NCBI RefSeq assembly: GCF_013340305.1
Contig: NZ_BLVP01000035.1
Coordinates: forward strand, 1-64,000
DNA: 64,000 nt
DNA from: Desulfovibrio psychrotolerans
GTDB lineage: Bacteria; Desulfobacterota; Desulfovibrionia; Desulfovibrionales; Desulfovibrionaceae
Reading direction: 5' to 3'
Positions within the stretch are counted from its first letter, which is position 1. The number at the start of each line of letters is the position of its first letter. A program made the translations under genes and the position numbers. Under the pieces are notes generated by a model. The model worked only from the letters and a program-made list of their open reading frames with translations, did no database searches and was not told the origin of the DNA. Positions 44,022-63,993 of this stretch are shown in pieces.

Positions 44022-44025
44022 CGCC

Positions 44026-45195
44026 ATGCGCAGGATATGTGTGGTTACGGGAACAAGGGCCGAATACGGCCTGCTGCGCCCGGTCATGCGGCGCATCGCC
44101 CAAAGCGGTTCGCTCGCATTGCAGGTCATTGCCACAGGCATGCACCTGTCGCAGGAATTCGGCCATACCGCACAGTCCATCCTCGACGACGGCTTTACCA
44201 TTGACGAGCGGGTTGAGATGCTACTCTCCAGCGACACCCCCGTCGGCATTACAAAATCCATGGGCCTGGGCGTCATAGGCTTTGCGGACGCCCTGGCCCG
44301 TCTTGCCCCGGACCTTGTCCTTGTGCTCGGCGACCGGTTCGAAATTCTCTCCGCCGTGCAGGCGGCCCTTATCGCCCGCATCCCCGTTGCCCACCTGTGC
44401 GGGGGCGATTCCACGGAAGGCGCGTTCGATGAAGGCATCCGCCACGCCATCACCAAGATGTCCCACCTGCACTTTGTCAGCAACGCCCACGCTGCCCTGC
44501 GCGTCCGCCAGATGGGAGAAAACCCGGAACACATCTTCAACGTAGGCAGTCCGGGAATAGACACCATTCTGGAACAGGACATGCTTTCCCGCGAAGCGCT
44601 CGCAGCATCGCTCGGCATACGCCTTGCTCCGCGCATGCTGCTGGTCACCTATCATCCGGAAACCCTGAGCAGCGCATCCGCAACCGGGCAGTTGCACAGC
44701 CTTTTCGGCGCGCTGGATGCCTTCTGCGCCAGCAGCGGTGAATGCAGCGTGGTCTTCACCATGCCCAATGCCGATACAGGCGGACGGGAAATCATGGAGC
44801 ACATACGCGCCTATGCCGAACACCGCCCGCATGTCAGCGCGCACACCTCGCTCGGCCAGCTGCGCTATCTCAGTGCCATGCGTCATGCCGCCGTGGTGGT
44901 GGGCAACTCGTCAAGCGGACTGTACGAGGCCCCCAGCCTGCATGTGCCGACCGTGAACATCGGCGACCGGCAGAAAGGGAGGCTTCGTGCCGCCTCCGTC
45001 ATAGACTGCGCTCCGGAAAAGGACGCCATACTGGCAGCCCTGAACACCGCCATTGCAACCGACTGCTCCGCCGTTTCCAATCCCTACGGCGATGGAAGAA
45101 CGGCAGAACGCATTGTCACGGTGCTGGAATCGCTCACGGACACGGCCTCCCTTGTCAGAAAACACTTTTTTGCCCTTGATGGAGACGTGCAATGA
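44026..45195 (+). CDS. legG: Hydrolysing nucleotide-sugar 2-epimerase (NeuC/LegG)
   Basis: The 389-residue protein begins MRRICVVTGTRAEYGLLRPVMRRI and has VLGDRFEILSAVQAALIARIPVAHLCGGDSTEGAFDE. These are the NeuC/LegG hallmarks; C-terminal GNSSSGLYEAPSLHVPTVNIGDRQKGR binds the nucleotide. It inverts C2 and releases the nucleotide to give the free sugar used by LegI. Its context between LegC and LegI makes LegG more likely than sialic-acid NeuC. Confidence 0.9.
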   Translation: MRRICVVTGTRAEYGLLRPVMRRIAQSGSLALQVIATGMHLSQEFGHTAQSILDDGFTIDERVEMLLSSDTPVGITKSMGLGVIGFADALARLAPDLVLVLGDRFEILSAVQAALIARIPVAHLCGGDSTEGAFDEGIRHAITKMSHLHFVSNAHAALRVRQMGENPEHIFNVGSPGIDTILEQDMLSREALAASLGIRLAPRMLLVTYHPETLSSASATGQLHSLFGALDAFCASSGECSVVFTMPNADTGGREIMEHIRAYAEHRPHVSAHTSLGQLRYLSAMRHAAVVVGNSSSGLYEAPSLHVPTVNIGDRQKGRLRAASVIDCAPEKDAILAALNTAIATDCSAVSNPYGDGRTAERIVTVLESLTDTASLVRKHFFALDGDVQ

Positions 45196-46268
45196 ACCCG
45201 GTGTACATCATTGCCGAAGCGGGCGTGAACCATAACGGCTCCCTCGACCTTGCCCGCAAACTCATCGATGCGGCCAAAGCAGCCGGTGCGGATGCCGTCA
45301 AGTTCCAGACCTTCAAGGCTTCAAGCATTGCCTCTGCCGGTGCTTCCAAGGCAGCCTACCAGAAGGAAACCACGGATGCCGCCGAATCCCAGCTTGATAT
45401 GCTGAAAAAGCTGGAACTCTCCGTTGCGGACCACGATGCCTTGCTGCAACACTGCCGAGACGTGGGCATAGAGTTCATGTCCACCCCGTTCGACCTCGAC
45501 AGCGTGGACCTGCTGATGAACCTTGGCGTGCAGCGTATGAAAATTCCGTCAGGCGAACTGACTAACGGGCCTCTGGTCCTCAAGGTGGCCAGAACCGGCT
45601 TGCCGGTCATCCTCTCCACGGGCATGGCCACCCCGGCTGAAGTCGAAACCGCCCTCGGCGTACTGGCATTCGGCATGATGGAGCCGGCTGACACGCCTGC
45701 AAAAGGCGACTTTGCCGCAGCCTATGCCTCGGAACAAGGCAAGCGCCTGCTCAGCGACCGCGTTGTCATTCTGCACTGCACCACGCAGTACCCCACACCT
45801 TACGAAGATGTGAACCTGCGCGGCATGGATACCCTGAAGGACATGTTCGGCATTCCCGTGGGCTATTCCGACCACACCCCCGGCATCACCATTCCCGTTG
45901 CCGCCACCGCACGCGGTGCCGTGCTGATTGAAAAGCATTTCACGTTGGATAAAAATCTACCCGGTCCCGACCACAAAGCCTCGCTGGAACCGCAGGAACT
46001 TGCAGAAATGGTCCGATCCATCCGCATTGTGGAACGCGCTCTGGGCACCGGAGAAAAAAAGCCCCAACCCAGCGAACTGGGTAACATGGCCATTGCCCGC
46101 AAAAGCCTTGTAGCCGCACGGGATATAGCCGCTGGCGAGCTGTTCACGGAAGAAAACCTGACCGTGAAACGGCCGGGTAATGGAGTATCGCCTATGTGCT
46201 ACTGGGAGTGGCTTGGGAAGCGGGCAAAGCAAGACTATCCCTCGGAAGCCCTCATTCAAGAATATTAG
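45192..46268 (+). CDS. legI: Legionaminic acid synthase (NeuB family)
   Basis: The 358-residue enzyme condenses the free sugar with PEP. Active-site segments are complete: IIAEAGVNHNGS, GADAVKFQTF, FMSTPFD, KIPSGELTN, ILSTGMAT, LHCTTQYPTP, YSDHTPGIT and IEKHFTLD. The last two supply both Mn-binding histidines. A SAF domain closes the protein. The ATG overlaps the LegG stop by 4 bp. Confidence 0.9.
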   Translation: MNPVYIIAEAGVNHNGSLDLARKLIDAAKAAGADAVKFQTFKASSIASAGASKAAYQKETTDAAESQLDMLKKLELSVADHDALLQHCRDVGIEFMSTPFDLDSVDLLMNLGVQRMKIPSGELTNGPLVLKVARTGLPVILSTGMATPAEVETALGVLAFGMMEPADTPAKGDFAAAYASEQGKRLLSDRVVILHCTTQYPTPYEDVNLRGMDTLKDMFGIPVGYSDHTPGITIPVAATARGAVLIEKHFTLDKNLPGPDHKASLEPQELAEMVRSIRIVERALGTGEKKPQPSELGNMAIARKSLVAARDIAAGELFTEENLTVKRPGNGVSPMCYWEWLGKRAKQDYPSEALIQEY

Positions 46269-46352
46269 CCTAGGCCCTTAAGCACAGGCAGCCTTGACTT
46301 AGTAGTAATCAGCACTCAGCAACCGGCTTATGCAGCCAAACGGACGCCATTT

Positions 46353-47417: not shown

Positions 47418-47420
47418 AGC

Positions 47421-48413
47421 ATGACCATACAGTCCAAGAACATCCTCGTTACCGGCGCGGACGGCTTCATCGGCTCGCACCTCACAGAAACCCTGGCCCG
47501 CATGGGCGCCAATGTCCGAGCGCTCAGCTACTACAACTCCTTCAACGACTGGGGATGGCTTGACACCATTGACCTGCCCGGCAACGTGAACGTGGTGACT
47601 GGCGACATCCGCGACCCCCATTTCTGCCGACATATCTGCAAGGATATCGATATAGTATTTCACCTTGCAGCGCTGATTGCCATTCCCTTTTCATACGTTG
47701 CTCCCGACTGCTACGTGGACACCAACGTGCGCGGCACGCTCAACATCTGCCAAGCCGCCCTCGACATGGGCTGCTCCAAGGTCATCCACACATCCACAAG
47801 CGAGGTGTACGGAACAGCATTGAGCGTCCCCATTTCCGAAGAGCACCCGCTTCAGGCGCAGTCACCTTACAGCGCCAGCAAGATAGGAGCTGACGCCATC
47901 GCCAACAGCTTCCACACATCGTTCGACCTGCCAGTTGTTACGGCCCGTCCATTCAACACCTTCGGCCCCAGGCAATCGGCACGGGCCGTCATTCCTAACA
48001 TCATCATACAACTCGCTGCTGGAAAAACTGAAATTGCCCTGGGTGACACGCGCCCCACCCGCGACTTCAACTACGTGCTCGACACTTGTCGAGGATTCAT
48101 CGCCCTTGCGGAGTACGACGGGGGCAACGGCGAAGTCTTCAACATCGGAAGCGGAAGAGACATTTCAATTCTCGATCTGTTCAGCACCATCAACGACCTC
48201 ATGGGCACCAAGGCAACCATCAAAGAAGAAGAGCAGCGATTCAGGCCCAAGAAATCCGAGGTCATGCGCCTGCTCTGCGACAGCTCCAAAATTGCGGCGG
48301 CCACCGGTTTCCGCTCCGCATACACGTTGGAGGACGGCCTTAAGGACTGCATTGCATGGTTCAGTAGGCAGGAAAACCTTAAGCGCTACAAGATAGATAT
48401 CTACAACGTGTAG
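47421..48413 (+). CDS. legB: LegB, nucleotide-sugar 4,6-dehydratase
   Basis: The 330-residue SDR enzyme has GADGFIGSHLTETL for NAD, VVTGDIRD, TSTSEVYG and the SPYSASKIGAD catalytic Tyr/Lys. The segment ALSYYNSFNDWGWLD is typical of the LegB branch (GDP-N-acetylglucosamine 4,6-dehydratase). It supplies the 4-keto sugar for LegC. It follows ptmE by 3 bp. Confidence 0.9.
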   Translation: MTIQSKNILVTGADGFIGSHLTETLARMGANVRALSYYNSFNDWGWLDTIDLPGNVNVVTGDIRDPHFCRHICKDIDIVFHLAALIAIPFSYVAPDCYVDTNVRGTLNICQAALDMGCSKVIHTSTSEVYGTALSVPISEEHPLQAQSPYSASKIGADAIANSFHTSFDLPVVTARPFNTFGPRQSARAVIPNIIIQLAAGKTEIALGDTRPTRDFNYVLDTCRGFIALAEYDGGNGEVFNIGSGRDISILDLFSTINDLMGTKATIKEEEQRFRPKKSEVMRLLCDSSKIAAATGFRSAYTLEDGLKDCIAWFSRQENLKRYKIDIYNV

Positions 48414-48424
48414 AGTAAACGTCC

Positions 48425-49561
48425 ATGAACAATCCGCAGAACATCATCATACTATATTCCAATATTTTTACTGAGCGCGATTATCAGCGGTTCGGAGTTG
48501 AAACCTTCAGAAAAAATGGTTTCTCGGTGCAGGCATGGGACGTAACCGCGCTCATAACTCCTGAGTATTTTAAAGGACTTCCTAATGATATCCGCAAACC
48601 TGTTGCGGAGACAGTGCTTATTACCTCACGGAAACAGCTGAAAGAACTTGTCGTACGAGCACCAAAGAATACCATCGCCATCAACTTCCTCCCGAGCGGG
48701 TTCACCACGCAGCACATTCTCGGCCTGCTACACGGACGGGACATAGCTATTTTAGATTATGCCACATCGCCACTGCGTGTCACCATGCCACGAAACATGA
48801 CTTCATTGAAGATGGCACTGAAAAACATCAACGTATCGAATCTGTCCAACACTGCTTTTCGAATTTTCAGTCGTTTCCGAAAGCCCACAATCGGTGCGAC
48901 CTACACTGTCATTACTGGCAATCCGGGCCGTACCGTGAAAGGTATCCCTATTCATGCACACACATTCGATTACGACACGTATCTCAAAGCTGGCAAAACA
49001 GGCAGCATCGGAAACTACCTTGTTTTCATCGACCAAGACATCCCGAATCATCCAGACTGCAATGTGCGGCACAAAATCAATCTGGCCACACGCGAGATAT
49101 ATTACCCTGCGGTAGACGCTGCATTCCGCTATATTGAAGAAAAAACCGGACTAAACGTCGTCATTGCCGCACATCCGCGATCAGACTACACGTCAACGGG
49201 CAATCCATATGGCAACAGAACGATCTTGAGCGGCAATACCTGTGAACTCATACGGGACAGCGCGGGGTGCATTACGCACTACTCCACAGCCATCAACTTC
49301 TGCGTATTGTACCATAAGCCCCTCATCGTCCTGACGATGGAAGAACTGGGGCCGCGCCAGAACCCATGGGTCGATGAATACATCCGCCTCCTAAACCCCT
49401 TGCAACTGGACCTCAATAATAAGGCAGACTGGACCCTTCCCATGCCACTGACTCACGGCAAGAATGCCTACGACAACTTCATTTATGAGTACATCAAATC
49501 GGACAAGGCACCGGATATTCCTTTGTGGGACATTGTCATCCAGCACTTGCGCAAGTCATGA
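48425..49561 (+). CDS. Unassigned GT-like protein inside the legionaminic operon
   Basis: The 378-residue protein has no signal or membrane segment. It begins with a Rossmann-like strand-helix (IIILYSNIFTERDYQRFG). The second half has VVIAAHPRSDY and LIRDSAGCITHYSTAINFCVLYHKPLIVL, a pattern like the C-terminal nucleotide-binding lobe of GT-B transferases (capsule or polysialyl type). It lies between LegB and LegF, and its stop overlaps the LegF start (ATGA). It is therefore a candidate nonulosonate transferase or an unidentified tailoring enzyme. The fold is inferred; I do not recognise the family. Confidence 0.55.
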   Translation: MNNPQNIIILYSNIFTERDYQRFGVETFRKNGFSVQAWDVTALITPEYFKGLPNDIRKPVAETVLITSRKQLKELVVRAPKNTIAINFLPSGFTTQHILGLLHGRDIAILDYATSPLRVTMPRNMTSLKMALKNINVSNLSNTAFRIFSRFRKPTIGATYTVITGNPGRTVKGIPIHAHTFDYDTYLKAGKTGSIGNYLVFIDQDIPNHPDCNVRHKINLATREIYYPAVDAAFRYIEEKTGLNVVIAAHPRSDYTSTGNPYGNRTILSGNTCELIRDSAGCITHYSTAINFCVLYHKPLIVLTMEELGPRQNPWVDEYIRLLNPLQLDLNNKADWTLPMPLTHGKNAYDNFIYEYIKSDKAPDIPLWDIVIQHLRKS

Positions 49562-50262
49562 AGCACCACAACACTCAATGCAGAATTCTCGGCGTCATCC
49601 CCGCAAGGGGGGGCTCGAAGCGCCTGCCCGGTAAAAACATCAGACCGCTTGGCGGCAGGCCTCTTATTCAGCACATCATTGAAACCTGCTCTCGATCTCG
49701 CCTGCTGACGGACTGCATTGTTTCCACTGATTCCGAGGCCATACGCCGTGCCGCCATGGATGCCGGGGCGCAGGCTCCCTTTCTGCGGCCGGACCACCTT
49801 GCGAGCGACACAGCCAATTCGCAGGATGTGCTGCGCCATGCTCTGGAGTTTTTTGCCGCGCAGGGCAACAAGTATACGCATGTTGTGCTCATGCAGCCCA
49901 CCTCGCCGCTGACTAGGGTGGAAACCATTGACCGCTGCATAGAGCGACTGCTTGAAGATAACCGCGACATGGTTTTTTCCGCCGATGCCGTGCATGTGGC
50001 TTCCCGCTTTATGGGTACCGTAGACCCGCAGGACACCTTTCTGCTCCGCTACCCAGCAGCAGACAGTACGCCGGAATACGTGCCCACCGGCAACGTGTAT
50101 GCCATGACCGCACGCCACGCCATTGAAGCGCCCTCCCTCTTCAGCGGCAATCTGGCGGTCGTTATGGTGACACGAGAGGAAGCCGTGGATATCGACTATG
50201 AAGAAGACTTTGTCATGGCGCAGATTTATTTCGACAAACTCAACCAGAACACGCAACCATGA
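49558..50262 (+). CDS. legF: CMP-legionaminic acid synthetase (NeuA/LegF family)
   Basis: The ATG at 49558 overlaps the previous stop and gives 234 residues. It has the cytidylyltransferase signature VIPARGGSKRLPGKNIRPLGGRPLI, LMQPTSPLTR and VDIDYEEDF. It would activate the sugar with CMP. Its stop overlaps the HisF-like ATG (ATGA). Confidence 0.88.
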   Translation: MKHHNTQCRILGVIPARGGSKRLPGKNIRPLGGRPLIQHIIETCSRSRLLTDCIVSTDSEAIRRAAMDAGAQAPFLRPDHLASDTANSQDVLRHALEFFAAQGNKYTHVVLMQPTSPLTRVETIDRCIERLLEDNRDMVFSADAVHVASRFMGTVDPQDTFLLRYPAADSTPEYVPTGNVYAMTARHAIEAPSLFSGNLAVVMVTREEAVDIDYEEDFVMAQIYFDKLNQNTQP

Positions 50263-51134
50263 GCACAACCAACCCGATTCGAATCATACCGAGGCTGGAC
50301 ATAAAAGGCCCTAACCTCATCAAGTCCATCCACCTTGAGGGGTTACGCGTCCTTGGCAAACCGGAGTTCTTCGCCACCAAGTACTGCGAACAGGGTGCCG
50401 ACGAAATTATCTACATAGACAGTGTGGCCAGCCTGTACGGGCGGAACAACCTGCACGAGATCGTTTCACGTACAGCCTCCAACATCTCCATCCCGCTCAC
50501 GGTGGGCGGGGGCATCCGCAGCCTTGACGATGCCTACCATCTGCTGCGCTCTGGTGCCGACAAAGTTGCCATAAACACCTCGCTCTTTGAAAAACCGGGG
50601 TTGATTTCCGAAGTGGCCAAACGGTTCGGCTCCCAGTGCGTGGTGGTGTACATAGAGGCCAAAAAAGTGGACAATCGATACCGCTGCATGCACACATACG
50701 GCCGCGACATCACAAGCCGCGAACCGCTGGAATGGGCGAAGGAAGCTGTGGACAGAGGGGCGGGAGAAATACTACTGACCAGCGTCGATCAGGAAGGAAC
50801 CGGTAACGGCTATGATCTGGAACTCATACATATGCTGGCTTCCTCCCTGCCGGTTCCCGTCATTGCCAGCGGCGGCGCGGGACGACTTGAACATCTCCTT
50901 GATGCCGCCACCACGGGCATGGCGGATGCCATTTCGCTGGCCTCGATGCTGCATTATGACCGATTGCAGAATGTTGTGGATTCCGAGAACTACGCATCGG
51001 AAGGAAATACGTCCTACATTGCGCTCCAACGGGGCAAGTCAACAGAATTTCTAAAGCAAAAAATCCGTCCAACCAGCATCCTCGACATCAAACATTTTCT
51101 GCTCGCCAACAACATCCAAACCCGACTCATTTAG
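50259..51134 (+). CDS. HisF-like cyclase-type partner of a sugar amidotransferase
   Basis: The 291-residue (beta/alpha)8 protein resembles HisF (RIIPRLDIKGPNLIKSIHLEG, LTVGGGIRSLDDA, GADKVAIN, LTSVDQEGTGNGYD, VIASGGAG). It keeps an Asp at the HisF D11 position, but at the D130 position it has Glu (VVVYIEAKK). Together with the HisH and PP-loop neighbours this is not histidine synthesis. It is the HisF2 member of the PseA/WbpG system, which delivers ammonia for acetamidino formation. Confidence 0.8.
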   Translation: MSTTNPIRIIPRLDIKGPNLIKSIHLEGLRVLGKPEFFATKYCEQGADEIIYIDSVASLYGRNNLHEIVSRTASNISIPLTVGGGIRSLDDAYHLLRSGADKVAINTSLFEKPGLISEVAKRFGSQCVVVYIEAKKVDNRYRCMHTYGRDITSREPLEWAKEAVDRGAGEILLTSVDQEGTGNGYDLELIHMLASSLPVPVIASGGAGRLEHLLDAATTGMADAISLASMLHYDRLQNVVDSENYASEGNTSYIALQRGKSTEFLKQKIRPTSILDIKHFLLANNIQTRLI

Positions 51135-51142
51135 TACCGATC

Positions 51143-51775
51143 ATGAACACAGTTCACATCATAGACTACGGCATAGGCAACATCTTCAACATCCGAAGAG
51201 CGGTAGCCGATGCGGGGGGCAATCCAGTGCTGACGTCACGCCCCGAGGATCTTGCCGCTGCCGATAAAGTCATCCTACCGGGCGTTGGGGCCTTTGGAAA
51301 TGCCATGCAGAGCCTTGCCCTCAACGGCATGGACGAGGCTATCAAAACATTCGTCACCTCGGGTAAACCGCTGCTCGGCATCTGCCTTGGAATGCAATTG
51401 CTCTTTTCCCGAAGCGATGAATTCGGGGATCATACAGGACTGGACCTTGTACCCGGTTCAGTCGAACGGCTGCCCATTACGGACGGCTCCAAACTGCCGC
51501 ACATCGGCTGGAGCAAGCTCTTGTGCCCCACGGAAGAAGCCACGGCTTGGAATGAAGGTCTATTCAAGGGCTTGACGATGGAAAGCTACGCCTACTTTGT
51601 GCACTCCTTTGCGGCAAAGCCCTTGTCACCTGAGCATGTCCTTTCGTATTCCAGCTATGGGCACAGTCTCTTTTGCAGCACCGTATCCCGTGATAATGTT
51701 TGGGGATGCCAGTTCCATCCCGAACTGAGCTTCAATACTGGCAAAGCCATCTTTCAGAATTTTCTTGCAGTCTAA
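51143..51775 (+). CDS. HisH-like glutamine amidotransferase
   Basis: The 210-residue class-I glutaminase has the nucleophile in LLGICLGMQLLF and the His-Glu pair in CQFHPELSF; VHSF supports a HisH-type domain. It would release ammonia from glutamine and pass it through the HisF-like partner to the sugar amidotransferase that follows 37 bp later (AGGAG upstream of that gene). Confidence 0.85.
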   Translation: MNTVHIIDYGIGNIFNIRRAVADAGGNPVLTSRPEDLAAADKVILPGVGAFGNAMQSLALNGMDEAIKTFVTSGKPLLGICLGMQLLFSRSDEFGDHTGLDLVPGSVERLPITDGSKLPHIGWSKLLCPTEEATAWNEGLFKGLTMESYAYFVHSFAAKPLSPEHVLSYSSYGHSLFCSTVSRDNVWGCQFHPELSFNTGKAIFQNFLAV

Positions 51776-51812
51776 ATGTCTTCTCACCTAGCAGGAGCAA
51801 CAGGAGATCATC

Positions 51813-53021
51813 ATGGATAAGCTTTTTCATACCCCTCTTCCTGAACTACCGACCATAGACAAACAACTCGGCAATATCCCGCAGGACGTGTTTTTTTGCA
51901 CCAAGTGTGTCACGTCCAACCAGCGTCCCCGTATAACATTCAATGATCAGGGGATTTGCAGCGCATGTCAGTGGCATGAGGAAAAAGAAACCCTCGACTG
52001 GAACGAACGCGAACGGATGCTCGTGGAACTGCTGGACAAGCACCGTTCCAAGAACGGTCAGTTTGACTGTCTTGTCCCCTCCAGCGGCGGCAAAGATTCC
52101 GGGTTCGTCGCCCACATGCTCAAGTACCGTTACGGCATGAATCCCCTTACGGTTACGTGGTCCCCGTTCATGTACACCGATATCGGCTTCAGAAACTTCA
52201 ACAACATGATTCATACCGGGTTTGACAACATTCAGTTCACCCCAAACGGGATATTCCACAGAAAGCTGTCCAGAATTTCATTTGAGTGCAACGGTGACAA
52301 CTTCGACCCATTTGTGTACGGACAGAAATCATTCGTCTTCAACATTGCCATCCGATTCAACATCCCGCTCATCTTCTACGGCGAGAACGGCGATCTGGAA
52401 TACGGTGGCAGCATGCATTCCAAAAACAAATCCCACGAAGACATATCCGACTGGACCAACACCTACTTCAAGGGCAGCGGCGTTCAGAACCTTGTCTCCA
52501 TCGGCCTTGAGAATGGCATCTTCACAAAAGATGAGATTGCTAGGCAGAACACCGAATTCTACCGAGCGCCGGACCCCGAACAGGTGAACAAGCTCGGCGC
52601 TGAAATGCACTGGTTCTCGTTCTATAAAAAATGGATCCCGCAGGAAAACTACTACTATTGCGTGGAAAACACCGGATTCGAAACCAACACAGAACGGTCC
52701 GAGGGTACCTATACCAAGTACGCCAGCCTTGATGACAAGACCGATGGCTTCCATTATTATATGGGATACATCAAGTTCGGTATGGGCAGAACCACCCGTG
52801 ACGCCTCCATGGAGATTCGCAACAAGCACATTACCCGTGAAGAAGCGGTGGCGCTGGTCAACAAGTACGACGGTGAATACCCCAACAAACACCTTGAAGA
52901 TTTCTGCCGTTACATCGACATCTCCAAGGAACACCTTGATGCCGTTATCGACAAATTCCGCCCGATCCACCTGTGGGAAAAGGTGGACAACGTGTGGCGC
53001 CTGAAGCACAGCGTAGCCTAA
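51813..53021 (+). CDS. pseA: N-acetyl sugar amidotransferase (PseA/WbpG family)
   Basis: The 402-residue PP-loop enzyme has a zinc pair CTKC...CSAC near the N-terminus and the ATP pyrophosphatase motif PSSGGKDSGF. This is the TIGR03573/WbpG/PseA family, which with HisH- and HisF-like partners converts an N-acetyl to an acetamidino group on nonulosonic acids. All three genes are in order here. The cluster could modify either the legionaminic or pseudaminic product; the sequence alone does not say which. Confidence 0.88.
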   Translation: MDKLFHTPLPELPTIDKQLGNIPQDVFFCTKCVTSNQRPRITFNDQGICSACQWHEEKETLDWNERERMLVELLDKHRSKNGQFDCLVPSSGGKDSGFVAHMLKYRYGMNPLTVTWSPFMYTDIGFRNFNNMIHTGFDNIQFTPNGIFHRKLSRISFECNGDNFDPFVYGQKSFVFNIAIRFNIPLIFYGENGDLEYGGSMHSKNKSHEDISDWTNTYFKGSGVQNLVSIGLENGIFTKDEIARQNTEFYRAPDPEQVNKLGAEMHWFSFYKKWIPQENYYYCVENTGFETNTERSEGTYTKYASLDDKTDGFHYYMGYIKFGMGRTTRDASMEIRNKHITREEAVALVNKYDGEYPNKHLEDFCRYIDISKEHLDAVIDKFRPIHLWEKVDNVWRLKHSVA

Positions 53022-53162: not shown

Positions 53163-54068
53163 ATGAAAGAAACAGTTAAGAAGGCCGTACGCGCCCTGAC
53201 CGTGGTAAGCACCGTGCTCGCGTACCCTTTCACGGCAGCATTCTTCTGGGTCAACCGATGGGTTCTCGACAATGACTTTGTGCTGCGCCAATACCCCAGA
53301 CTGGGCAAGCCGTCCTACTGGGCCGTTCCTTTTGTCGCATTCTACCATCTGGTAGGCATCATCCACAGCGGGTTCAAGGCCAGTTATTCCAACTACGCCA
53401 TCAAACAGTACCACCGCCTTACTCCGCTGCACTATGCCCCTGGAGGCCGCGGATACCTTTCGCTGAAGGACCTGTCGGAAGCCGAAAAAACCGAAAAATA
53501 CCAGTCACTCGTAAGCCGGGCATCCATGGTCTTGGACAAGGCGGGCATGCTTGCCCTCTACCGCGACGGTGATTCCTTTCTTGATGCAGGATGCGGCATG
53601 GGGAAGAACATCCGTTTCCTTTCACAGGCCTATCCCAACTCCAAGATTACGGGCTTCGACATTAATGAGTCCGCCCTTGATCTGATCAAGTCGGCTGAGA
53701 AGAACCCGAATGTCACTGTAGAAAAGGGCAGCATTCTTGAGCCGGCATACATGGCCTCGCTTCCCGCCAACGGATTTGACCATGTCATCATGTCCCATGT
53801 TATGGGGTTCATATGCGTTGAAAACGAGAAGGTTACAGCAGAGATTCGTCAGTCGATAGTTGACAACCTTGTCCGCGTTGCAAACAAATCCTTTCTCCTT
53901 CTTGACTCACATTCCTCTTGCAAGGCGATGACCGTTGAAATCGAGCAGAAAAACCGCTGTCGCATTTACGACAACCTGACACGCTACTTCGAAAAGCATC
54001 TCAACACTGGTGAACTGTACCTGGTCCCCTCACCAGAAACAACCGGGTTCTACTATGTTAAACGATAA
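53163..54068 (+). CDS. Second class I SAM methyltransferase, membrane-associated
   Basis: The 301-residue protein starts with hydrophobic segments (LTVVSTVLAYPFTAAFFWV and YWAVPFVAFYHLVGIIH) before a SAM domain (SFLDAGCGMGKNIRFLSQAY, ITGFDINESAL). The last ~14 bp overlap the pseB start, so translation is coupled. Likely acts on a lipid-linked or membrane-near glycan. It has no closer resemblance to the other cluster methyltransferase than the shared fold. Confidence 0.78.
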   Translation: MKETVKKAVRALTVVSTVLAYPFTAAFFWVNRWVLDNDFVLRQYPRLGKPSYWAVPFVAFYHLVGIIHSGFKASYSNYAIKQYHRLTPLHYAPGGRGYLSLKDLSEAEKTEKYQSLVSRASMVLDKAGMLALYRDGDSFLDAGCGMGKNIRFLSQAYPNSKITGFDINESALDLIKSAEKNPNVTVEKGSILEPAYMASLPANGFDHVIMSHVMGFICVENEKVTAEIRQSIVDNLVRVANKSFLLLDSHSSCKAMTVEIEQKNRCRIYDNLTRYFEKHLNTGELYLVPSPETTGFYYVKR

Positions 54069-55044
54069 ATCCATTCTCATCACCGGCGGCACAGGCTCCT
54101 TCGGCAAGATGTTCACCGAGATCATCCTGAAGCGCTTCGCGCCCCGGCGTCTCATCGTCTTCAGCCGCGACGAGCTCAAGCAGTTCGAAATGGCTCACGA
54201 ATTTTCCAAGGAAAAATACCCCTGCATCCGCTATTTCATTGGCGACATACGCGATAAAGAACGCCTCTACCGCGCCTTGCAGGGCGTGGATTTTGTCATC
54301 CATGCGGCTGCCATGAAGCATGTACCCGCCTCGGAATACAACCCCACGGAAGCCATAAAGACCAACATCTATGGCACGCAGAACCTCATTAACGTGGCTG
54401 CGGACGTGGGCGTGCAACGGCTGGTGGCGCTCAGCACAGACAAGGCGGTCAGCCCCGCAAACCTGTACGGTGCCACCAAGCTGGCAGCAGACAAGCTGGT
54501 GGTCGCCGCCAACATGTTCACGGGCAGCGCCACCCGGTTCAGCGTGGTGCGCTACGGCAACGTCATGGGCAGCCGCGGCAGCGTCATTCCCTTCTTCATG
54601 AACAAGCGCAAGGAAGGCGTGCTGCCCATCACAGACCCGCGCATGACCCGCTTCTGGATATCGCTTGAAGAAGGCGTAAACCTCGTCATCAAGGCTCTGC
54701 ACGAAGCCGCCGGCGGCGAGATATACGTCCCCAAAATCCCGAGCATGAACATCATGGATCTCGCAAAGGCCATAGCGCCTGAGTGCGAAACCAAGATAGT
54801 GGGCATCCGTCCCGGCGAAAAACTGCACGAACGCATGATCCCCATGGAAGATGCCCGCCACACTCTGGACATGGGCGACCACTTCATCATCAAGCCCGAC
54901 CACGAGCTCTTCAACTTCAAGGGCGACCTCTCCGCAGGCAAGCCCGTGCCGGAAAACTTCGAATATGATTCCGGCACCAACAACTGGTGGCTCACCGTGG
55001 ACGAAATGCGCACCATGCTGCGCCAGCAGGGCTGGGGCATATAG
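54055..55044 (+). CDS. pseB: PseB, UDP-GlcNAc 4,6-dehydratase (5-inverting)
   Basis: The ATG at 54055 gives 329 residues. It begins MLNDKSILITGGTGSFGKMF and has the PseB features FSRDELKQFEM, GDIRDKERLYRAL, VALSTDKAVSPANLYGATKLAADKL and FFMNKRKEG. It makes the 4-keto-altrose derivative from UDP-GlcNAc, the first step to pseudaminic acid. PseC follows 4 bp after its stop. Confidence 0.93.
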   Translation: MLNDKSILITGGTGSFGKMFTEIILKRFAPRRLIVFSRDELKQFEMAHEFSKEKYPCIRYFIGDIRDKERLYRALQGVDFVIHAAAMKHVPASEYNPTEAIKTNIYGTQNLINVAADVGVQRLVALSTDKAVSPANLYGATKLAADKLVVAANMFTGSATRFSVVRYGNVMGSRGSVIPFFMNKRKEGVLPITDPRMTRFWISLEEGVNLVIKALHEAAGGEIYVPKIPSMNIMDLAKAIAPECETKIVGIRPGEKLHERMIPMEDARHTLDMGDHFIIKPDHELFNFKGDLSAGKPVPENFEYDSGTNNWWLTVDEMRTMLRQQGWGI

Positions 55045-55048
55045 CGTC

Positions 55049-56191
55049 ATGGAAGACAACCGCACATTCATCCCTTACGGGCGACAGCACATCACGGACG
55101 AAGACATCGCCGCCGTGACCGAAGCCCTGCGGTCAGACTGGCTCACCACCGGTCCCCGCGTGGGCGAGTTCGAGCAGGCAGTGTGCACCTTCACGGGTGC
55201 ACGCCACGGCGTTGCGGTGTGCAACGGTACAGCGGCCCTGCATGCTGCCATGTTCGCGCTGGGCATCGGCCCCGGAGACGAGGTCATCGTCTCCCCCATG
55301 ACCTTTGCAGCCACTGCGAACTGCGTGCTGTATATGGGGGGCACCCCCGTGTTTGCCGATGTGGAGCCGGACACTCTGCTTATAGACCCGCAGGCGGTGC
55401 GCGCCCGCATCACGCCCGCAACCCGGGCCATCATCGGCGTGGACTATGCCGGCCAGCCCTGCGACTGGGACGCCCTGCGGGCCGTTGCCGATGAAGCGGG
55501 CGTAGCACTGGTTGCGGATGGCTGCCATGCCATCGGCGGCACGTACAGAGGGCGCAGTGTGGGTACCCTTGCCGATATGACCGTGTTCAGCTTCCATCCG
55601 GTGAAGCACGTTGCCACGGGAGAAGGCGGCATGATCATGACGGACAGCGATCTGCTCGCCGCCCGTCTGCGCCTGTTCCGCAATCACGGCATCTCCACGG
55701 ACCACCGCCAGCGCGAAGCCGCAGGTTCATGGGCGTACGACATGGTGGAACTCGGGTACAACTACCGCATTACGGACATCCAATGCGCGCTGGGCATCTC
55801 ACAGCTGAAACGTCTGCCGCATTCGCTGGAACGTCGCCGCGCCATCGCAGCACAGTATGATGCCGCCTTTGCGGGCACTGACATCTCGCCCTGCACACAA
55901 AGACCCGACAGGCTCAACGCCTATCACCTCTACGCCGTGCAACTCCCGGAGAAGACCGACCGCGCCGCCGCGTTCGCCCACATGCGCGCCAACAAAATAG
56001 GCGTCAACGTCCACTACATTCCCGTGCACCTGCACCCGTATTACCGCACCCGCCTCGGCACGGCGGAAGGACTGTGCCCTGTGGCGGAAAAAGCATACAA
56101 CCATCTGCTTTCCCTGCCGATGTTCCCGGAACTGTCCGAGGCGGACGTGGACAGGGTGGTTAAAACGCTGCTGGATGCCCGAGGAGCGTAA
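55049..56191 (+). CDS. pseC: PseC, UDP-4-amino-4,6-dideoxy-altrosamine transaminase
   Basis: The 380-residue DegT-family enzyme starts MEDNRTFIPYGRQHIT and has NGTAALHAAMFALGIGPGDEVI, VADGCHAIGGTYRG and FSFHPVKHVATGEGGMI with the PLP lysine. It adds the C4 amino group after PseB. It ends directly before the PseG-PseH gene (TAAGTG). Confidence 0.93.
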   Translation: MEDNRTFIPYGRQHITDEDIAAVTEALRSDWLTTGPRVGEFEQAVCTFTGARHGVAVCNGTAALHAAMFALGIGPGDEVIVSPMTFAATANCVLYMGGTPVFADVEPDTLLIDPQAVRARITPATRAIIGVDYAGQPCDWDALRAVADEAGVALVADGCHAIGGTYRGRSVGTLADMTVFSFHPVKHVATGEGGMIMTDSDLLAARLRLFRNHGISTDHRQREAAGSWAYDMVELGYNYRITDIQCALGISQLKRLPHSLERRRAIAAQYDAAFAGTDISPCTQRPDRLNAYHLYAVQLPEKTDRAAAFAHMRANKIGVNVHYIPVHLHPYYRTRLGTAEGLCPVAEKAYNHLLSLPMFPELSEADVDRVVKTLLDARGA

Positions 56192-57691
56192 GTGAAGCTG
56201 GTCATCCGCGCAGACGCCACGCCCGAAATGGGAACCGGTCATGTCATGCGTTGCATCGCCCTTGCACAGGCGGCGGTGCGGCGGGGCATGCAGGTTGCGT
56301 TTGCAACGCGTTGCGAAATCCCTTTCCTGCGCGAACGCCTGTCCGCCATACCGTGCACGGTAACGTATCTCGCACCTCAGGCGGACAGGGACGAAGAGAT
56401 GGCTGTCATCCGCGCAATGATGACTCCGGCTCCTTGTGCGATTGTTCTGGACGGCTACCACTTCACTCTGGACTACCAGCAGGCCATCCGCCCCTATGCC
56501 AAGACCGTAGTTCTGGACGACCACGCCTTTCGCAGGGAATTCTGCTGCGATATTCTGGTGAATCCCAGCACCATGCCGGAACTGGTCCGCTACCCTGAGG
56601 CACATGATACCAGACTCCTTGTCGGACACCGCTACGTCATGCTGCGCGAAGAATTCCTGCAGGCTCCCCCGGCACGGCCCGATGAACATAAAGGTCCCGT
56701 CCGCCTTCTTGTCTCCATGGGCGGCGCAGACCCACACAACGCCACCTGCGCCATTTTGCAGACTCTGGCCGAACTGTCTCCGGATAACGTAACACTGACC
56801 GTGCTCACCGGCCCGGCAAACCCGCATACAGAAAGCATCCGCCAAACGCTGCAGACAGTGCGGTGTGCACACACACAACTCCTCACGGCGGTCTCTGACA
56901 TGCCCGCCCTGCTACGGCAGACAGACCTTGCCATCTCCGCTGCGGGCAGCACCTGCTTTGAGCTTGCCCGCATGGGGATTCCCTTCTTTCTGCTCCAGAC
57001 AGCGGACAACCAGGCTCTGCTGGCAGAAAGCCTAACCCGTCAGGGAATCGCAGTTTCCATGGGTAGTCTGGATGCCATGTCTCCCCAGTGGTCTACAACC
57101 CTGTCAGACTTTCTTGCAGATTCCGCGCTCCGGCATCACACCGCTGCCCGTGCTCGTTCACTGGTTGACGGACTAGGCGCATTCCGCCTTCTTGAGGCGT
57201 TGGCTCCCACGGAACTGCGGTTGCGCCCTGCCACCCCGGATGACTGCGATGCCGTTTTCAGCATCGCAAACGACCCTCAGGTGCGTGCCGCATCGTTCAA
57301 TTCGGCCCCCATCCCTCATGCAAATCATGTGGCATGGTACAAAGAGGCCCTGCAGTCCGGGGATATCCATTTTTATATGGCGGATAATGCCTACGGCGTT
57401 CCCGCCGGATACGCCCGTTTCCATACGGGAGAAGGCCGCACAGCCACTATATCCGTAGCTGTGGCACTGCCCTTCCGGGGCTGCGGGCTCGGTGGCAGCC
57501 TTATCGGGCAGGCTTGCCGCATGTTCCTGAAAGAGCACCCCGGGCACACGGTGCGGGCACTCATCAAGTCAGACAATATCGCTTCCGTAAAAAGCTTTCT
57601 CTCTGCAGGCTTTTATTTAACGAAAACAGGGCAATATATGAACGTGCCTACAGAATTTTACACACTCGGAGCAGCCGGAAATGACCAGTAG
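56192..57691 (+). CDS. pseG: PseG-PseH fusion: UDP-sugar hydrolase plus N-acetyltransferase
   Basis: The 499-residue frame (GTG start) joins two enzymes that are usually separate. Residues 1-~335 match PseG (VIRADATPEMGTGHVMRCIALA, LLVSMGGADPHNAT, ISAAGSTCFELARMGIPF). Residues ~341-490 match a GNAT N-acetyltransferase such as PseH (LRLRPATPDDCDAVFSIANDP, RGCGLGGSLIGQA for acetyl-CoA). The pathway order is PseH then PseG, so a fusion could channel the intermediate. The gene overlaps pseI by 11 bp. Confidence 0.88.
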   Translation: MKLVIRADATPEMGTGHVMRCIALAQAAVRRGMQVAFATRCEIPFLRERLSAIPCTVTYLAPQADRDEEMAVIRAMMTPAPCAIVLDGYHFTLDYQQAIRPYAKTVVLDDHAFRREFCCDILVNPSTMPELVRYPEAHDTRLLVGHRYVMLREEFLQAPPARPDEHKGPVRLLVSMGGADPHNATCAILQTLAELSPDNVTLTVLTGPANPHTESIRQTLQTVRCAHTQLLTAVSDMPALLRQTDLAISAAGSTCFELARMGIPFFLLQTADNQALLAESLTRQGIAVSMGSLDAMSPQWSTTLSDFLADSALRHHTAARARSLVDGLGAFRLLEALAPTELRLRPATPDDCDAVFSIANDPQVRAASFNSAPIPHANHVAWYKEALQSGDIHFYMADNAYGVPAGYARFHTGEGRTATISVAVALPFRGCGLGGSLIGQACRMFLKEHPGHTVRALIKSDNIASVKSFLSAGFYLTKTGQYMNVPTEFYTLGAAGNDQ

Positions 57692-58751
57692 CATCACCAT
57701 AGGCACCCGAACCATAGGCGCAGGGCACCCCGCATATATCATTGCGGAGATGTCGGCCAACCACAACCAGAGCTTCGACCGTGCGGCAGACATCCTCCGT
57801 GCTGCCCATGCCGCAGGCGCAGATGCCGTGAAGCTGCAGACCTACACCGCAGACACCCTCACCATCCCCTGCGACAACGAACATTTCCGTATCAAGGGCA
57901 CCCTGTGGGAAGGCCGAACCCTGCATGACCTGTATCTGGAGGCCTACACTCCGTGGGACTGGCAGCCCAAGCTCAAGGCTTTGGCCGATGAACTGGGCAT
58001 GCACCTGTTTTCCACTCCGTTCGATGAAACGGCCGTGGATTTTCTGGAAACCATGAACGTTCCCGCCCACAAGGTTGCGTCCTTTGAGCTTGTGGACCTG
58101 CCTCTGCTCAAAAAGATTGCGGCCACGGGCAAACCCGTCATTATGTCCACCGGCATGGCCACCCTGGCAGAAATCGATGAGGCAGTGACCACCCTGCGTC
58201 AGGCAGGGTGCAAACAACTTGCCCTGCTCAAATGCACCAGTGCCTACCCCGCCCCCGCCCACGAAATGAACCTGCGCACCATACCCCATCTCGGGCAGGC
58301 GTTCGGCGTTCCCAGCGGGCTTTCCGACCACACCCTCGGCATCACCGCGCCTGTGGCCGCCGTGGCTCTCGGGGCCTGTATCATCGAAAAGCACTTCACC
58401 CTCTCCCGTGGCGATGAGGGACCGGACTCCTCATTCTCTCTGGAACCGCAGGAGTTCAGGCAGATGGTCGACGCCATACGCATGGCAGAGGCGGCCCTCG
58501 GTACGGTACAATACACCCTCACTGCCAAGGAAGTTGCCAGCAAGGTGTTCCGACGCTCTCTCTTCGTGGTAAAGGACGTGAAAAAAGGAGAAACATTCAC
58601 CCTAGAGAATGTGCGCTCCATACGCCCGGGTACAGGCTTGCATACCCGTTTTCTCTCGGATATAATTGGCAGTCACGCTACTATGGACATTCAAGCGGGC
58701 ACCCCAATGTCTATGGGCCTTTTCACCTCCGGGAATAATCACCGTGAATAG
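57681..58751 (+). CDS. pseI: Pseudaminic acid synthase (NeuB family)
   Basis: The 356-residue synthase has IIAEMSANHNQSFDRA, GADAVKLQTYTADTL, FSTPFDETAVDFLE, IMSTGMAT, LSDHTLGIT and IEKHFTLS, keeping both Mn-binding histidines, plus a C-terminal SAF domain. The SANHNQ motif and TPWDWQPKL are typical of PseI. It condenses the 2,4-diacetamido sugar with PEP. Confidence 0.93.
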   Translation: MTSSITIGTRTIGAGHPAYIIAEMSANHNQSFDRAADILRAAHAAGADAVKLQTYTADTLTIPCDNEHFRIKGTLWEGRTLHDLYLEAYTPWDWQPKLKALADELGMHLFSTPFDETAVDFLETMNVPAHKVASFELVDLPLLKKIAATGKPVIMSTGMATLAEIDEAVTTLRQAGCKQLALLKCTSAYPAPAHEMNLRTIPHLGQAFGVPSGLSDHTLGITAPVAAVALGACIIEKHFTLSRGDEGPDSSFSLEPQEFRQMVDAIRMAEAALGTVQYTLTAKEVASKVFRRSLFVVKDVKKGETFTLENVRSIRPGTGLHTRFLSDIIGSHATMDIQAGTPMSMGLFTSGNNHRE

Positions 58752-59451
58752 CAGAACCCTCACTATCCTCCCCGCAAAACTCGGGTCTACCCGGCTTCCG
58801 CAAAAGAACATTCTACCTCTGGGAGACAAACCGCTCATTGCCTGGAGCATTGAAGCGGCTAGGCAATCCTCTGCCTGCGGTCGCATCATGGTCTCCTCCG
58901 AAAGCAAAAAAGTTCTCGACATTGCTGAAGAATACGGTGCTGAAGTCCCTTTCGTCCGCCCGGACCATTTGGCCAGAGATCCCTACGGCGTCTCTGACGT
59001 GTGCCTGAATGTTCTGGAAGCATATGAACAACTCGGCCAGACGTTCGACACGCTGATTATCCTGCTCCCCACCTCCCCTTTCAGAACGGCGGAGGATATT
59101 GACGCTGCCTATGCTCTCTTCCGGGAGAACAACGCAAATTATTTAATGAGTGTTTCTGAATACGAGCATAGCCCCTACAGTGCGCTCCGCATGGCCTCGC
59201 AATTTCCGCATCAGGCCTTTCCCTGTTTCCCGGAAACGCTGGGCAAGAAGCGGCACGAGATGCCCGTTCCGTACCGCGCAAACGGCGCTATTTGCATTGT
59301 TGACGTAAAGGCATTCAAGCAAAGCAGGTCATACTACGGAACACCTCTGCATGTGTATGCAATGCCACAAAGCCGCTCCATAGATATAGACTCGGCGCTT
59401 GATTTTGAATTAGCACAATGGCTTCTCACCAAACGAGTTTCCAATGACTAA
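58744..59451 (+). CDS. pseF: CMP-pseudaminic acid synthetase
   Basis: From a GTG at 58744 that overlaps the pseI stop, the protein has 235 residues with ILPAKLGSTRLPQKNILPLGDKPLI, LLPTSPFRTAEDID, and IDIDSALDFELA. It belongs to the NeuA/PseF cytidylyltransferases. A Lys replaces the usual Arg of the PARxGS motif, which is common in this branch. It ends with an 8-bp overlap into the third synthase gene. Confidence 0.88.
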   Translation: MNSRTLTILPAKLGSTRLPQKNILPLGDKPLIAWSIEAARQSSACGRIMVSSESKKVLDIAEEYGAEVPFVRPDHLARDPYGVSDVCLNVLEAYEQLGQTFDTLIILLPTSPFRTAEDIDAAYALFRENNANYLMSVSEYEHSPYSALRMASQFPHQAFPCFPETLGKKRHEMPVPYRANGAICIVDVKAFKQSRSYYGTPLHVYAMPQSRSIDIDSALDFELAQWLLTKRVSND

Positions 59452-60517
59452 CAAGACTCTCCACCTCGGCTCACGCGTTCTTGGCGAAGGGAACCCTGTT
59501 CACATTGTATTTGAAGCAGGTCCCACACATAGCGGTCTCGAATCCGCGCTTAAACTGGTAGATATGGCAGCCGACGCCAATGCGGACGCTATCAAATTCC
59601 AGATGGTTGATGCCAAGGCTATTGTATCCAACCCTTCTGTGAAGTTTTCATATTCCTATCTAAAAGATCGACACACCGGAGAAACGGAAACTATCGAGGA
59701 GTCCCTTCTCGAAATTCTGCAACGCCGGGAACTGACAAGAGAAGAATGGAAAATCCTCATCGCCCACTGCAAGCAGAGAGGAATCGATTTCTTTTCCACT
59801 GCAACCACTGAAGACGAGCTCCATTTCCTTGCTGCGCAAGGAGTGGATTGTATCAAGATATGCTCCGGAGATCTGACCTACCACCATTTTTTACGTGTTG
59901 CTGCGCAATACGATTGGGCCATACAGATAGACACAGGGTCTTCCAGCATTGGCGAGGTTGAAAAGGCCATAGATGTGCTTGAAGAGGCAAACGCTCGCAA
60001 GATCATCATCAACCATTGTCCCTCCGGATATCCTGCCCACCTTGAAGGAATTAATCTCAACGTTCTGCGCACCCTTAAGAGCATGTTCCCATATCCTGTT
60101 GCCTTCTCTGATCACACCCCGGGAGCAGTGATGGATGTCGCTGCTGTGGCTCTGGGAGCACACATGATCGAGAAGACCATCACGCTTGACAGGACAACGC
60201 GCAGCCCTGAACATATCATGTCTTTGGAACCTGAAGACGCAGCTGCCTTTATTAAGACTATCCGCGAGGTGGAAATTGCACTCGGCTCCACCCGCAGATA
60301 TGTTTCCCCACCTGAAAGAAAGTCCAGACTGGTGGCGCGGCGAAGCCTTTTTGCCGCTTGTGATTTACCCGCAGGAAGCACAATTTCTCAAGAGCATCTG
60401 CACTATTCCCGTCCCGGAGACGGCATTCCTGCGGATATGGACCACCTGATTCTGGGCAGAACAACTGCGCACAATCTGACCAAGGGACAAAAGCTTTCTT
60501 TTTCCGACTTCAAGTAA
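59444..60517 (+). CDS. Divergent third NeuB-family synthase paralogue
   Basis: The 357-residue protein has the NeuB barrel and SAF domain (DAIKFQMVDAKAIV, FFSTATTEDELHFL, CIKICSGDL, YPVAFSDHTPG, SLEPEDAAAF, SRPGDGI). Several active-site segments differ from LegI and PseI here. AE..NHN is FEAGPTHSG, STPFD is STATTED and STGMAT is DTGSSS. IEKHFTL is IEKTITL, so the second Mn ligand His is a Thr. It retains the SDHT histidine and the KFQ lysine. It may make another keto-sugar or have a different reaction. The gene overlaps pseF by 8 bp. Confidence 0.75.
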   Translation: MTNKTLHLGSRVLGEGNPVHIVFEAGPTHSGLESALKLVDMAADANADAIKFQMVDAKAIVSNPSVKFSYSYLKDRHTGETETIEESLLEILQRRELTREEWKILIAHCKQRGIDFFSTATTEDELHFLAAQGVDCIKICSGDLTYHHFLRVAAQYDWAIQIDTGSSSIGEVEKAIDVLEEANARKIIINHCPSGYPAHLEGINLNVLRTLKSMFPYPVAFSDHTPGAVMDVAAVALGAHMIEKTITLDRTTRSPEHIMSLEPEDAAAFIKTIREVEIALGSTRRYVSPPERKSRLVARRSLFAACDLPAGSTISQEHLHYSRPGDGIPADMDHLILGRTTAHNLTKGQKLSFSDFK

Positions 60518-62707: not shown

Positions 62708-63229
62708 ATGCTCGACAAGCTCTTCACATCCAAAACGCGCATCAAGCTGCTCCTCAAGCTTTTCCTTAACCCTGAGGTCTCTTCCTATCTGCGCGAATTA
62801 TCCAGCGAGTTCAGCCTTTCACCCAACGCGCTGAAAGAGGAATTGGACGGCCTGAGTCAGGCGGGGTACCTTGACAAGGAAAAGAAAGGACGGAACATCT
62901 ACTACAAGGCCAACACACGGCATCCTTTCTTTCCGGAAATCAGCTCCATCGTGCGCAAACATTTCGGCATAGACAGGGTGATCGAGCAGATTCTCACCCA
63001 CCTTGGCGACGTACAGGAAGTTTACATTCTGGACGACTATGCCAAAGGGGTGGACAGCGGCATAATTGACGTGCTCGTCGTCGGCAACGTAGACCCCAAT
63101 AAACTGCACGGTGTGGCACAGCCCATAGAGAAAAAGCTGGGCAGAAAGATCAGAACCATGGTCATGCCCACCAGCGAATTTAACACAACCAGTCTGCTGG
63201 CTAAACGCCCGTATTGGAAGGCATATTAA
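62708..63229 (+). CDS. Winged-helix (ArsR-like) regulator with nucleotidyltransferase-like domain
   Basis: The 173-residue protein has an N-terminal winged helix (RIKLLLKLFLNPEVSSYLRELSSEFSLSPNALKEELDGLSQAGYL) and a C-terminal segment resembling a degenerate MNT-type nucleotidyltransferase (VYILDDYAKGVDSGIIDVLVVGNVDPNKL). Regulators of this build occur in polysaccharide islands, so it likely controls this cluster. The preceding promoter shares its layout with the cluster's first promoter. Sensing mechanism is unknown. Confidence 0.78.
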   Translation: MLDKLFTSKTRIKLLLKLFLNPEVSSYLRELSSEFSLSPNALKEELDGLSQAGYLDKEKKGRNIYYKANTRHPFFPEISSIVRKHFGIDRVIEQILTHLGDVQEVYILDDYAKGVDSGIIDVLVVGNVDPNKLHGVAQPIEKKLGRKIRTMVMPTSEFNTTSLLAKRPYWKAY

Positions 63230-63231
63230 CC

Positions 63232-63993
63232 ATGCGTCCCCCTATGACCATAGCTGCATTACGCCAAAAACTTTCAACTGGCGGGCACACCGTTGGATCG
63301 TGGATGCAAATTCCCTCGCCCGATGTAGCCGAACTTATGGGCAATTCAGGGTATGACTGGATTGCTGTGGACCTAGAACACGGCGCCTTTACCCGCAGCG
63401 ATCTCCCGGACACATTTCGCGCCATTGACCTAGGCGGCTCGCTGCCTTTTGCCCGGGTTGCGGACTGCACCATGACCTCGATCAAGGGAGCCTTGGATTC
63501 CGGAGCTGCGGGTCTCATCTTTCCCATGATCGAATCCCGTAAACAACTGGACGATGCTATCAGCCTTTCTCTGTACCCGCCCAACGGAATACGCGGAGTC
63601 GGCTATTGTCGAGGCAATCTGTTCGGCAAGCAGTTCGAACAGGGCGTTGCTGCCAATCCCGACCTCTTTTTCTGTGCACAGATTGAGCACGTGCGGGCTA
63701 TAGACAACCTGTCGGCCATTCTTGCTCACCCCAGACTGGACGCGATTATGGTAGGCCCTTATGACCTTTCCGGCTCCATGGGCTTGACCGGGCAGTTCGG
63801 ACACTCTGACTTTACGCAAGCTCTTTCCCGCATTGCTGAATCGGCGCGATCCGCATGCATCCCCATGGGGCTGCATGTTGTACAGCCCGACGCAGCAGCA
63901 CTGCGCAGCAAGATTGAGGAAGGATACCAGTTCATTGCGTACGGAATTGATTCCGTGTTTTTGTATAACAGTGCCGAAAGGCCCATCTGGTAA
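63232..63993 (+). CDS. HpcH/HpaI-family aldolase
   Basis: The ATG at 63232 gives 253 residues of a TIM-barrel metal-dependent aldolase/citrate-lyase-like protein. SWMQIPSPDVAELMGNSGYDWIAVDLEHGAF, LIFPMIESRKQLD, QIEHVRAI (metal Glu) and VGPYDLSGSMG are the HpcH/HpaI signatures. Such enzymes cleave or form pyruvate aldols. Next to nonulosonate genes it could act on a keto-deoxy sugar, but that is a guess. It follows the regulator stop by 2 bp, and only 7 bases of window follow its stop. Confidence 0.85.
   Translation: MRPPMTIAALRQKLSTGGHTVGSWMQIPSPDVAELMGNSGYDWIAVDLEHGAFTRSDLPDTFRAIDLGGSLPFARVADCTMTSIKGALDSGAAGLIFPMIESRKQLDDAISLSLYPPNGIRGVGYCRGNLFGKQFEQGVAANPDLFFCAQIEHVRAIDNLSAILAHPRLDAIMVGPYDLSGSMGLTGQFGHSDFTQALSRIAESARSACIPMGLHVVQPDAAALRSKIEEGYQFIAYGIDSVFLYNSAERPIW

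Follow-up and report, generated by a model that had tools for sequence, protein, structure and literature searches.

The window, i.e., the entire 64,000-nucleotide stretch of Desulfovibrio psychrotolerans DNA considered here, carries a cluster of Pse genes in the order pseB-pseC-pseGH-pseI-pseF'-X, where X denotes a variant NeuB. These genes, together with a canonical NeuB of the adjoining Leg cluster that serves for comparison, are as follows:

45192..46268, + strand: LegI-type canonical NeuB (assigned by motifs and tree)
54010..55044 (true start probably 54055), + strand: PseB dehydratase (TIGR03589, 509 bits)
54851..56191 (true start probably 55049), + strand: PseC aminotransferase (TIGR03588, 465 bits)
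56192..57691, + strand: PseG-PseH fusion (TIGR03590, 206.7 bits, above the cut-off; weak PseH plus GNAT domain)
57681..58751, + strand: PseI, the canonical metal-type synthase (TIGR03586, 509 bits, cut-off 340)
58744..59451 (probable GTG start at 58744; listed ORF from 58666), + strand: PseF', a non-canonical CMP-NulO synthetase paired with X, in a clade of X-linked transferases (TIGR03584, 155 bits, cut-off 205.7)
59444..60517, + strand: X, a variant NeuB of 357 amino acids with an ATG start, a NeuB TIM barrel plus SAF domain, and Thr at the second metal position

The ATG of X overlaps the stop of the preceding "pseF" by 8 bases (ATGACTAA). The first-pass annotation had described a full-length protein coupled to pseF; the length and the overlap hold, but the neighbor, with its score below the TIGR03584 cut-off, is not a canonical PseF and falls outside the canonical PseF clade (99/94). 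Upstream of the Pse genes, positions 42840-53021 are occupied by a complete cluster of the legionaminic-acid type, which includes HisF/HisH-like genes and an N-acetyl sugar amidotransferase (TIGR03573, 357 bits). Beyond them, positions 63214-63990 and the continuation of the contig (L042; G000 C35 64000-74000) encode an HpcH/HpaI aldolase, a 2-hydroxyacid dehydrogenase, a HAD phosphatase, a sugar epimerase, and a second KdsB-like CMP-Kdo synthetase (330 bits, above the cut-off), perhaps the enzymes of a fourth 3-deoxy-ulosonate pathway of this island, one based on the aldolase.

NeuB enzymes synthesize sugars of the sialic-acid type, for which they are taken to require Mn coordinated by a pair of His residues. 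By both profile and fold, X is a member of the NeuB superfamily (PF03102 with SAF), though it lacks this two-His site. It matches the whole of the Pfam NeuB domain (PF03102, 8.9e-66) and the SAF domain (5.7e-6), both above cut-offs, and scores below the equivalog cut-offs for both N-acetylneuraminate synthase (TIGR03569, 282.2 bits against 399.65) and PseI (TIGR03586, 194.7 bits against 340.25). An AF2 model built from an alignment of 79 homologues has a mean pLDDT of 97.1; its top Foldseek matches are NmNeuB (1xuu/4ipj) and Campylobacter jejuni PseI (8h2c), with a TM score of 0.88 and 24% identity in the structural alignment to 1xuu.

The altered motifs and the missing second Mn-binding His that had been read from the letters of X are borne out by alignment: X has FEAGPTHSG (TH for NH), IQIDTGSSS (DTG for STG), AFSDHT, and IEKTITL (IEKT), whereas the LegI and PseI of the window both retain NHN, STGMAT, and IEKHFTL. 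In NmNeuB, His215 and His236 are the residues that hold Mn. The corresponding and associated positions of X are as follows:

59525..59527, + strand: Thr28, at the NmNeuB Asn29 position; Thr in 23 of the 24 homologues without His236, Asn or Ser in 149 of the 157 that have it
59642..59704, + strand: residues 67-87, a predicted beta hairpin with a 7-residue insertion, its loop facing sugar C4-C6 (AF2 model and loop-length comparison)
59930..59932, + strand: Asp163, at the NmNeuB Ser154 position; D in 24 of 24 non-His236 homologues and in 0 of 157 His236 ones
60113..60115, + strand: His224, the first metal ligand (NmNeuB His215), retained by residue alignment
60176..60178, + strand: Thr245, codon ACC, at the second metal ligand (NmNeuB His236), the His being gone; common to 10 complete relatives
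60410..60412, + strand: Arg323 of the SAF domain (NmNeuB Arg314), which reaches the neighbor's active site, retained by residue alignment

Apart from its shared TIM barrel and SAF domain, X retains the equivalents of most residues listed for the NeuB active site (PMC6795526, PMC7371886), namely E25, H30, K53, Q55, T110, K129, S132, Y186, S213, D214, H215, E234, and R314 of Neisseria NeuB (1XUU; TIGR03569). It differs in having T for N29, T for F112, D for S154, and T for H236, and M157, which follows the STG, is replaced by Ser. In a six-member alignment of the Thr branch, E24, K51, Q53, T119, K138, S141, D143, Y196, S222, H224, E243, and the SAF Arg323 (X numbering) are invariant, as are the new residues T28, D163, and T245. 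PseI (8H2C; TIGR03586) is encoded in the same cluster and shares a Ser at position 184, but has His236, Ser154, Asn29, and mostly Phe133; LegI-type synthases (that of the window is 37% identical to X) share a small residue at position 133 but have the full His-His site; and SpsE of Bacillus (1VLI) shares the fold and the N-terminal barrel motifs but retains NHD, SDH, and EKH. PseI and the LegI proteins also occupy separate tree branches.

The first-pass annotation had judged X unlikely to be junk, and the gene is indeed intact and belongs to a well-supported clade of ten proteins. X shares 69% identity with its counterpart in a relative of the same genus, with pN 0.24 against pS 0.86 (synonymous sites being saturated). 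Identities of 58% for PseI and 36% for PseF' in the same pair of clusters indicate that X is under stronger constraint than PseI. One relative has its X homologue split over two overlapping ORFs (L179:8724-9793, G536) beside intact PseI and PseF', through a frameshift, an assembly error, or decay, and this is the one observation that would speak for a decaying duplicate or a sequencing error. Such an explanation is very improbable for X of the window. A misread His codon, which had been named as a possible refutation, is excluded, as ACC lies two substitutions from any His codon and 10 complete relatives from two phyla share these letters; together with pN far below pS, indicative of purifying selection, this conservation led us to reject the error and pseudogene candidates.

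The change at the metal site is part of a wider pattern. Our homologue set comprised 183 distinct rows from genomes, phage contigs, and the PDB (180 from loci or the window and 3 PDB sequences), including one misaligned ORF of L094 and one row that ends before position 236. His236 is present in 157 of the 183, with S, G, or A and never Asp at position 154. Asp154 is present in all 24 homologues whose residue 236 is T, R, P, or N, and Thr29 in 23 of these. Positions 29, 154, and 236 thus combine as either N/S/H or T/D/non-H with hardly any mixed cases, and the same table is obtained in a wider set. In a tree computed with these three columns masked, all non-His236 proteins lie on one side of a single branch, though with weak support (70/21), so that we do not take their monophyly as a firm result. 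Firmer support is seen for the group of T and N types (100/97) and for ten of the eleven T types (99/89), both being apart from PseI, LegI, NmNeuB, and SpsE; the phylogeny proposed at the outset thus places X in a well-supported branch of its own. The metal pocket looks as if it has been rebuilt jointly, in one ancient change retained through deep divergence rather than in many independent ones, because the non-His236 rows appear to be one lineage.

One alternative is that X is an ordinary Mn-dependent NulO synthase with Asp154 as ligand in place of His236 and a known product. In its favor, all T, P, and N types retain His215, and the loss of His236 is accompanied by the gain of Asp154. However, positions 154 and 236 are found at the ends of separate barrel strands, and the viral R types, with Arg at 236 and more of the site lost, have Asp154 although His215 has gone along with His236. 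As these R types keep Asp154 in spite of the loss of His215, the residue is not merely a metal ligand, and we consider this reading quite unlikely. Another metal geometry, which the first-pass annotation had envisaged as one option for X, would fit the S154D swap.

The segment from position 55 to 110 measures 66 residues in 10 of 11 T-type proteins against 59-61 in PseI, the difference lying in the predicted hairpin. A role in specificity has been assigned to the loop facing sugar C4-C6, and a position numbered 132 or F129 in the same study marks the C2 configuration (PMC7371886). We take this marker to be position 133 here, which is Gly in X and Phe in 0 of 11 T types against 24 of 27 PseI proteins. 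Because X has Gly133 and no T type has Phe133, the acceptor of X probably differs from that of PseI. The earlier idea of a different keto-sugar thus gains indirect support from the branch-specific insertion and the absence of the Pse-type Phe. Further, the catalytic set, the new pocket residues, and the sugar-loop insertion are all conserved, which favors an enzyme over a scaffold.

The Thr branch is rare, spans Desulfovibrionaceae, Magnetococcales, and other Pseudomonadota, and has related forms in phages. Of 199 Desulfovibrionaceae genomes, 4 yielded a T type, as did one more genome of the same phylum, in addition to the Magnetococcales and other Pseudomonadota; all these counts are lower bounds (a P type in G156 was overlooked at first). 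Among 31 plasmid records with a NeuB, the best is 39% identical to X and none is a close member; isolated phages yielded no match to X and only remote matches to the R type. P-type NeuBs (EKP, SCH or SDH, DTG; Asp154) occur in Desulfovibrionaceae at L040/L029, L048, and L289. R-type NeuBs (Arg236, Asp154, first metal His lost) occur on phage contigs (L082-L084, L077, L090, L093, L098, L141, and L144), mostly in tandem with or near a normal NeuB and accompanied by PseB/PseC and a CMP-transferase.

Nearly every T-type cluster combines X with pseB, pseC, a CMP-transferase, PseG, and a normal NeuB, usually PseI. The order varies, e.g., pseB-pseC-pseF'-X-pseG-pseI (L038), pseB-pseC-X-pseF'-pseG-pseI (L179), and pseB-pseC-X-hisH-hisF-ptmG-pseF'-pseGH-pseI (L178). 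The normal NeuB lies within about 9 kb of X in 10 of 12 T-type genomes, although that of the L006 genome is a partial gene at the end of a contig; in G500 the distance is 18 kb, and in G485 the two genes are on different contigs. This proximity raises the alternative that X is a non-metal partner subunit, forming a PseI-X heteromer in which PseI would receive a SAF domain or an allosteric site from X. NeuB forms domain-swapped dimers, the SAF domain of one subunit reaching into the site of the other (PMC6795526), and this arrangement would suit such a role. A normal NeuB accompanies the variant in nearly all clusters of bacteria and phages, whatever its subfamily; the R type directly precedes it in five phage loci (L077, L082-L084, and L090) as tandem genes with short overlaps; and ten PseI-centered control loci without X have one NeuB each. 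However, a scaffold alone would not need the full catalytic set and a sugar loop particular to the branch, two normal NeuBs also occur together without the variant (L296), and a partner role would leave the link to PseF' unexplained. On balance, we hold the partner subunit to be possible but doubtful. SAF-less normal NeuBs beside SAF-bearing variants were considered as proof of a heterodimer and set aside on account of the base rate, the SAF domain being missing in 30 of 83 viral His-type NeuBs versus 0 of 137 cellular ones.

X is always accompanied by a non-canonical CMP-transferase. No canonical PseF turned up in the 12 T-type genomes, though 9 of these have PseI above the cut-off; among PseI-positive Desulfovibrionaceae genomes, it is present in 29 of 38 without a T-type X against 0 of 4 with one (hypergeometric p about 0.006). 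Thus, the search for other genomes in which the variant travels with pseF, as the first-pass annotation had suggested, does find such genomes, with the correction that the partner is the non-canonical PseF'. X and PseF' have a G+C content of 0.50-0.53 against 0.58-0.63 in the preceding pse genes, and this shared lower value suggests that the two arrived as a pair. A first impression that PseF' is one clade confined to X was weakened: the X-linked transferases form two lineages, one of them sister to canonical PseF, and the other has a sister group located by a NeuB variant with A29, G154, and His236. As a check, the tree was extended by 15 transferases drawn from 12 loci that lack X. The single added transferase falling inside an X-linked lineage is that of L289, so that its ancestry led to a further, unclassified NeuB paralogue beside it (C29, D154, H215, P236), a normal NeuB lying nearby. 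Another two, placed near the first X-linked lineage, come from L286 and L288, where a NeuB variant with A29, G154, His236, and QDH (L286:4885-5931; L288:2401-3540) adjoins a DHDPS-family gene, the PseF-like gene, and a normal NeuB.

The retention of PseI alongside the replacement of PseF by PseF' and X could also mean that X is another kind of enzyme on this fold, acting on the PseI product before PseF', e.g., as an aldol-type epimerase or in a hand-over step. Loss of a metal ligand and gain of Asp at Ser154 might suit a phosphate-free ligand. Nonetheless, the PEP-site residues K51, T119, K138, and S141 are retained, G500 has X and PseF' but no PseI above the cut-off, and to our knowledge no member of this fold family acts on a PseI-type product. 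We regard such an activity as unlikely.

We favor, at not quite an even chance, the reading that X is an active PEP-dependent NulO synthase without the standard His-His Mn site, with an acceptor of its own and a product activated by PseF'. Its pocket would have been rebuilt as a unit, with Asn29 to Thr, Ser154 to Asp, and His236 to Thr, most other NeuB active-site residues being retained. X would then carry out the usual PEP-dependent aldol-type condensation to yield a 3-deoxy-ulosonate (NulO), either with a metal on His215 and the new Asp or with no metal, as in the non-metallo KDO8P synthases. Its acceptor sugar, probably other than that of PseI, would be made in the same PseB/PseC cluster, and the adjoining PseF' would activate its product. 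Several points stand against this synthase: in the minimal clusters (the window, L179, and L183), PseB-PseC-PseG account for the only obvious aldose, leaving a second acceptor with no evident source; a normal NeuB so near X in 10 of 12 genomes would suit a partner role as well; an Asp close to PEP might interfere with the binding of its phosphate; and the related viral R types lack even more of the site.

A precedent for such a change is offered by the non-metallo KDO8P synthases, which condense PEP with an aldose on this fold without a metal, a property set by few pocket residues; the engineered KDO8P synthase forms 2nxg and 2nws are among the fold matches of X. They belong to a different family, and the change there is of Cys to Asn on strand 1, in contrast to the His lost from strand 8 and the Asp gained on strand 5 in X. 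In the open-access papers searched, we found no description of such a NeuB branch or of the linked pocket variant with a PseF' companion; the family and the chemistry class are known, and the apparently new element is this linked variant and its companion. More broadly, and tentatively, these proteins may constitute a metal-independent (or Asp/His-metal) NulO synthase branch with its own CMP-transferase lineage and phage relatives, producing an undescribed nonulosonic acid beside pseudaminic acid. If true, the NeuB family would have its own equivalent of the metallo/non-metallo division among KDO8P synthases. The product of such clusters would be misread when X is annotated simply as N-acetylneuraminate synthase, and the linked marks, namely T29, D154, non-His236, and the PseF' type, would provide a sequence test for such clusters and a short list of enzymes.
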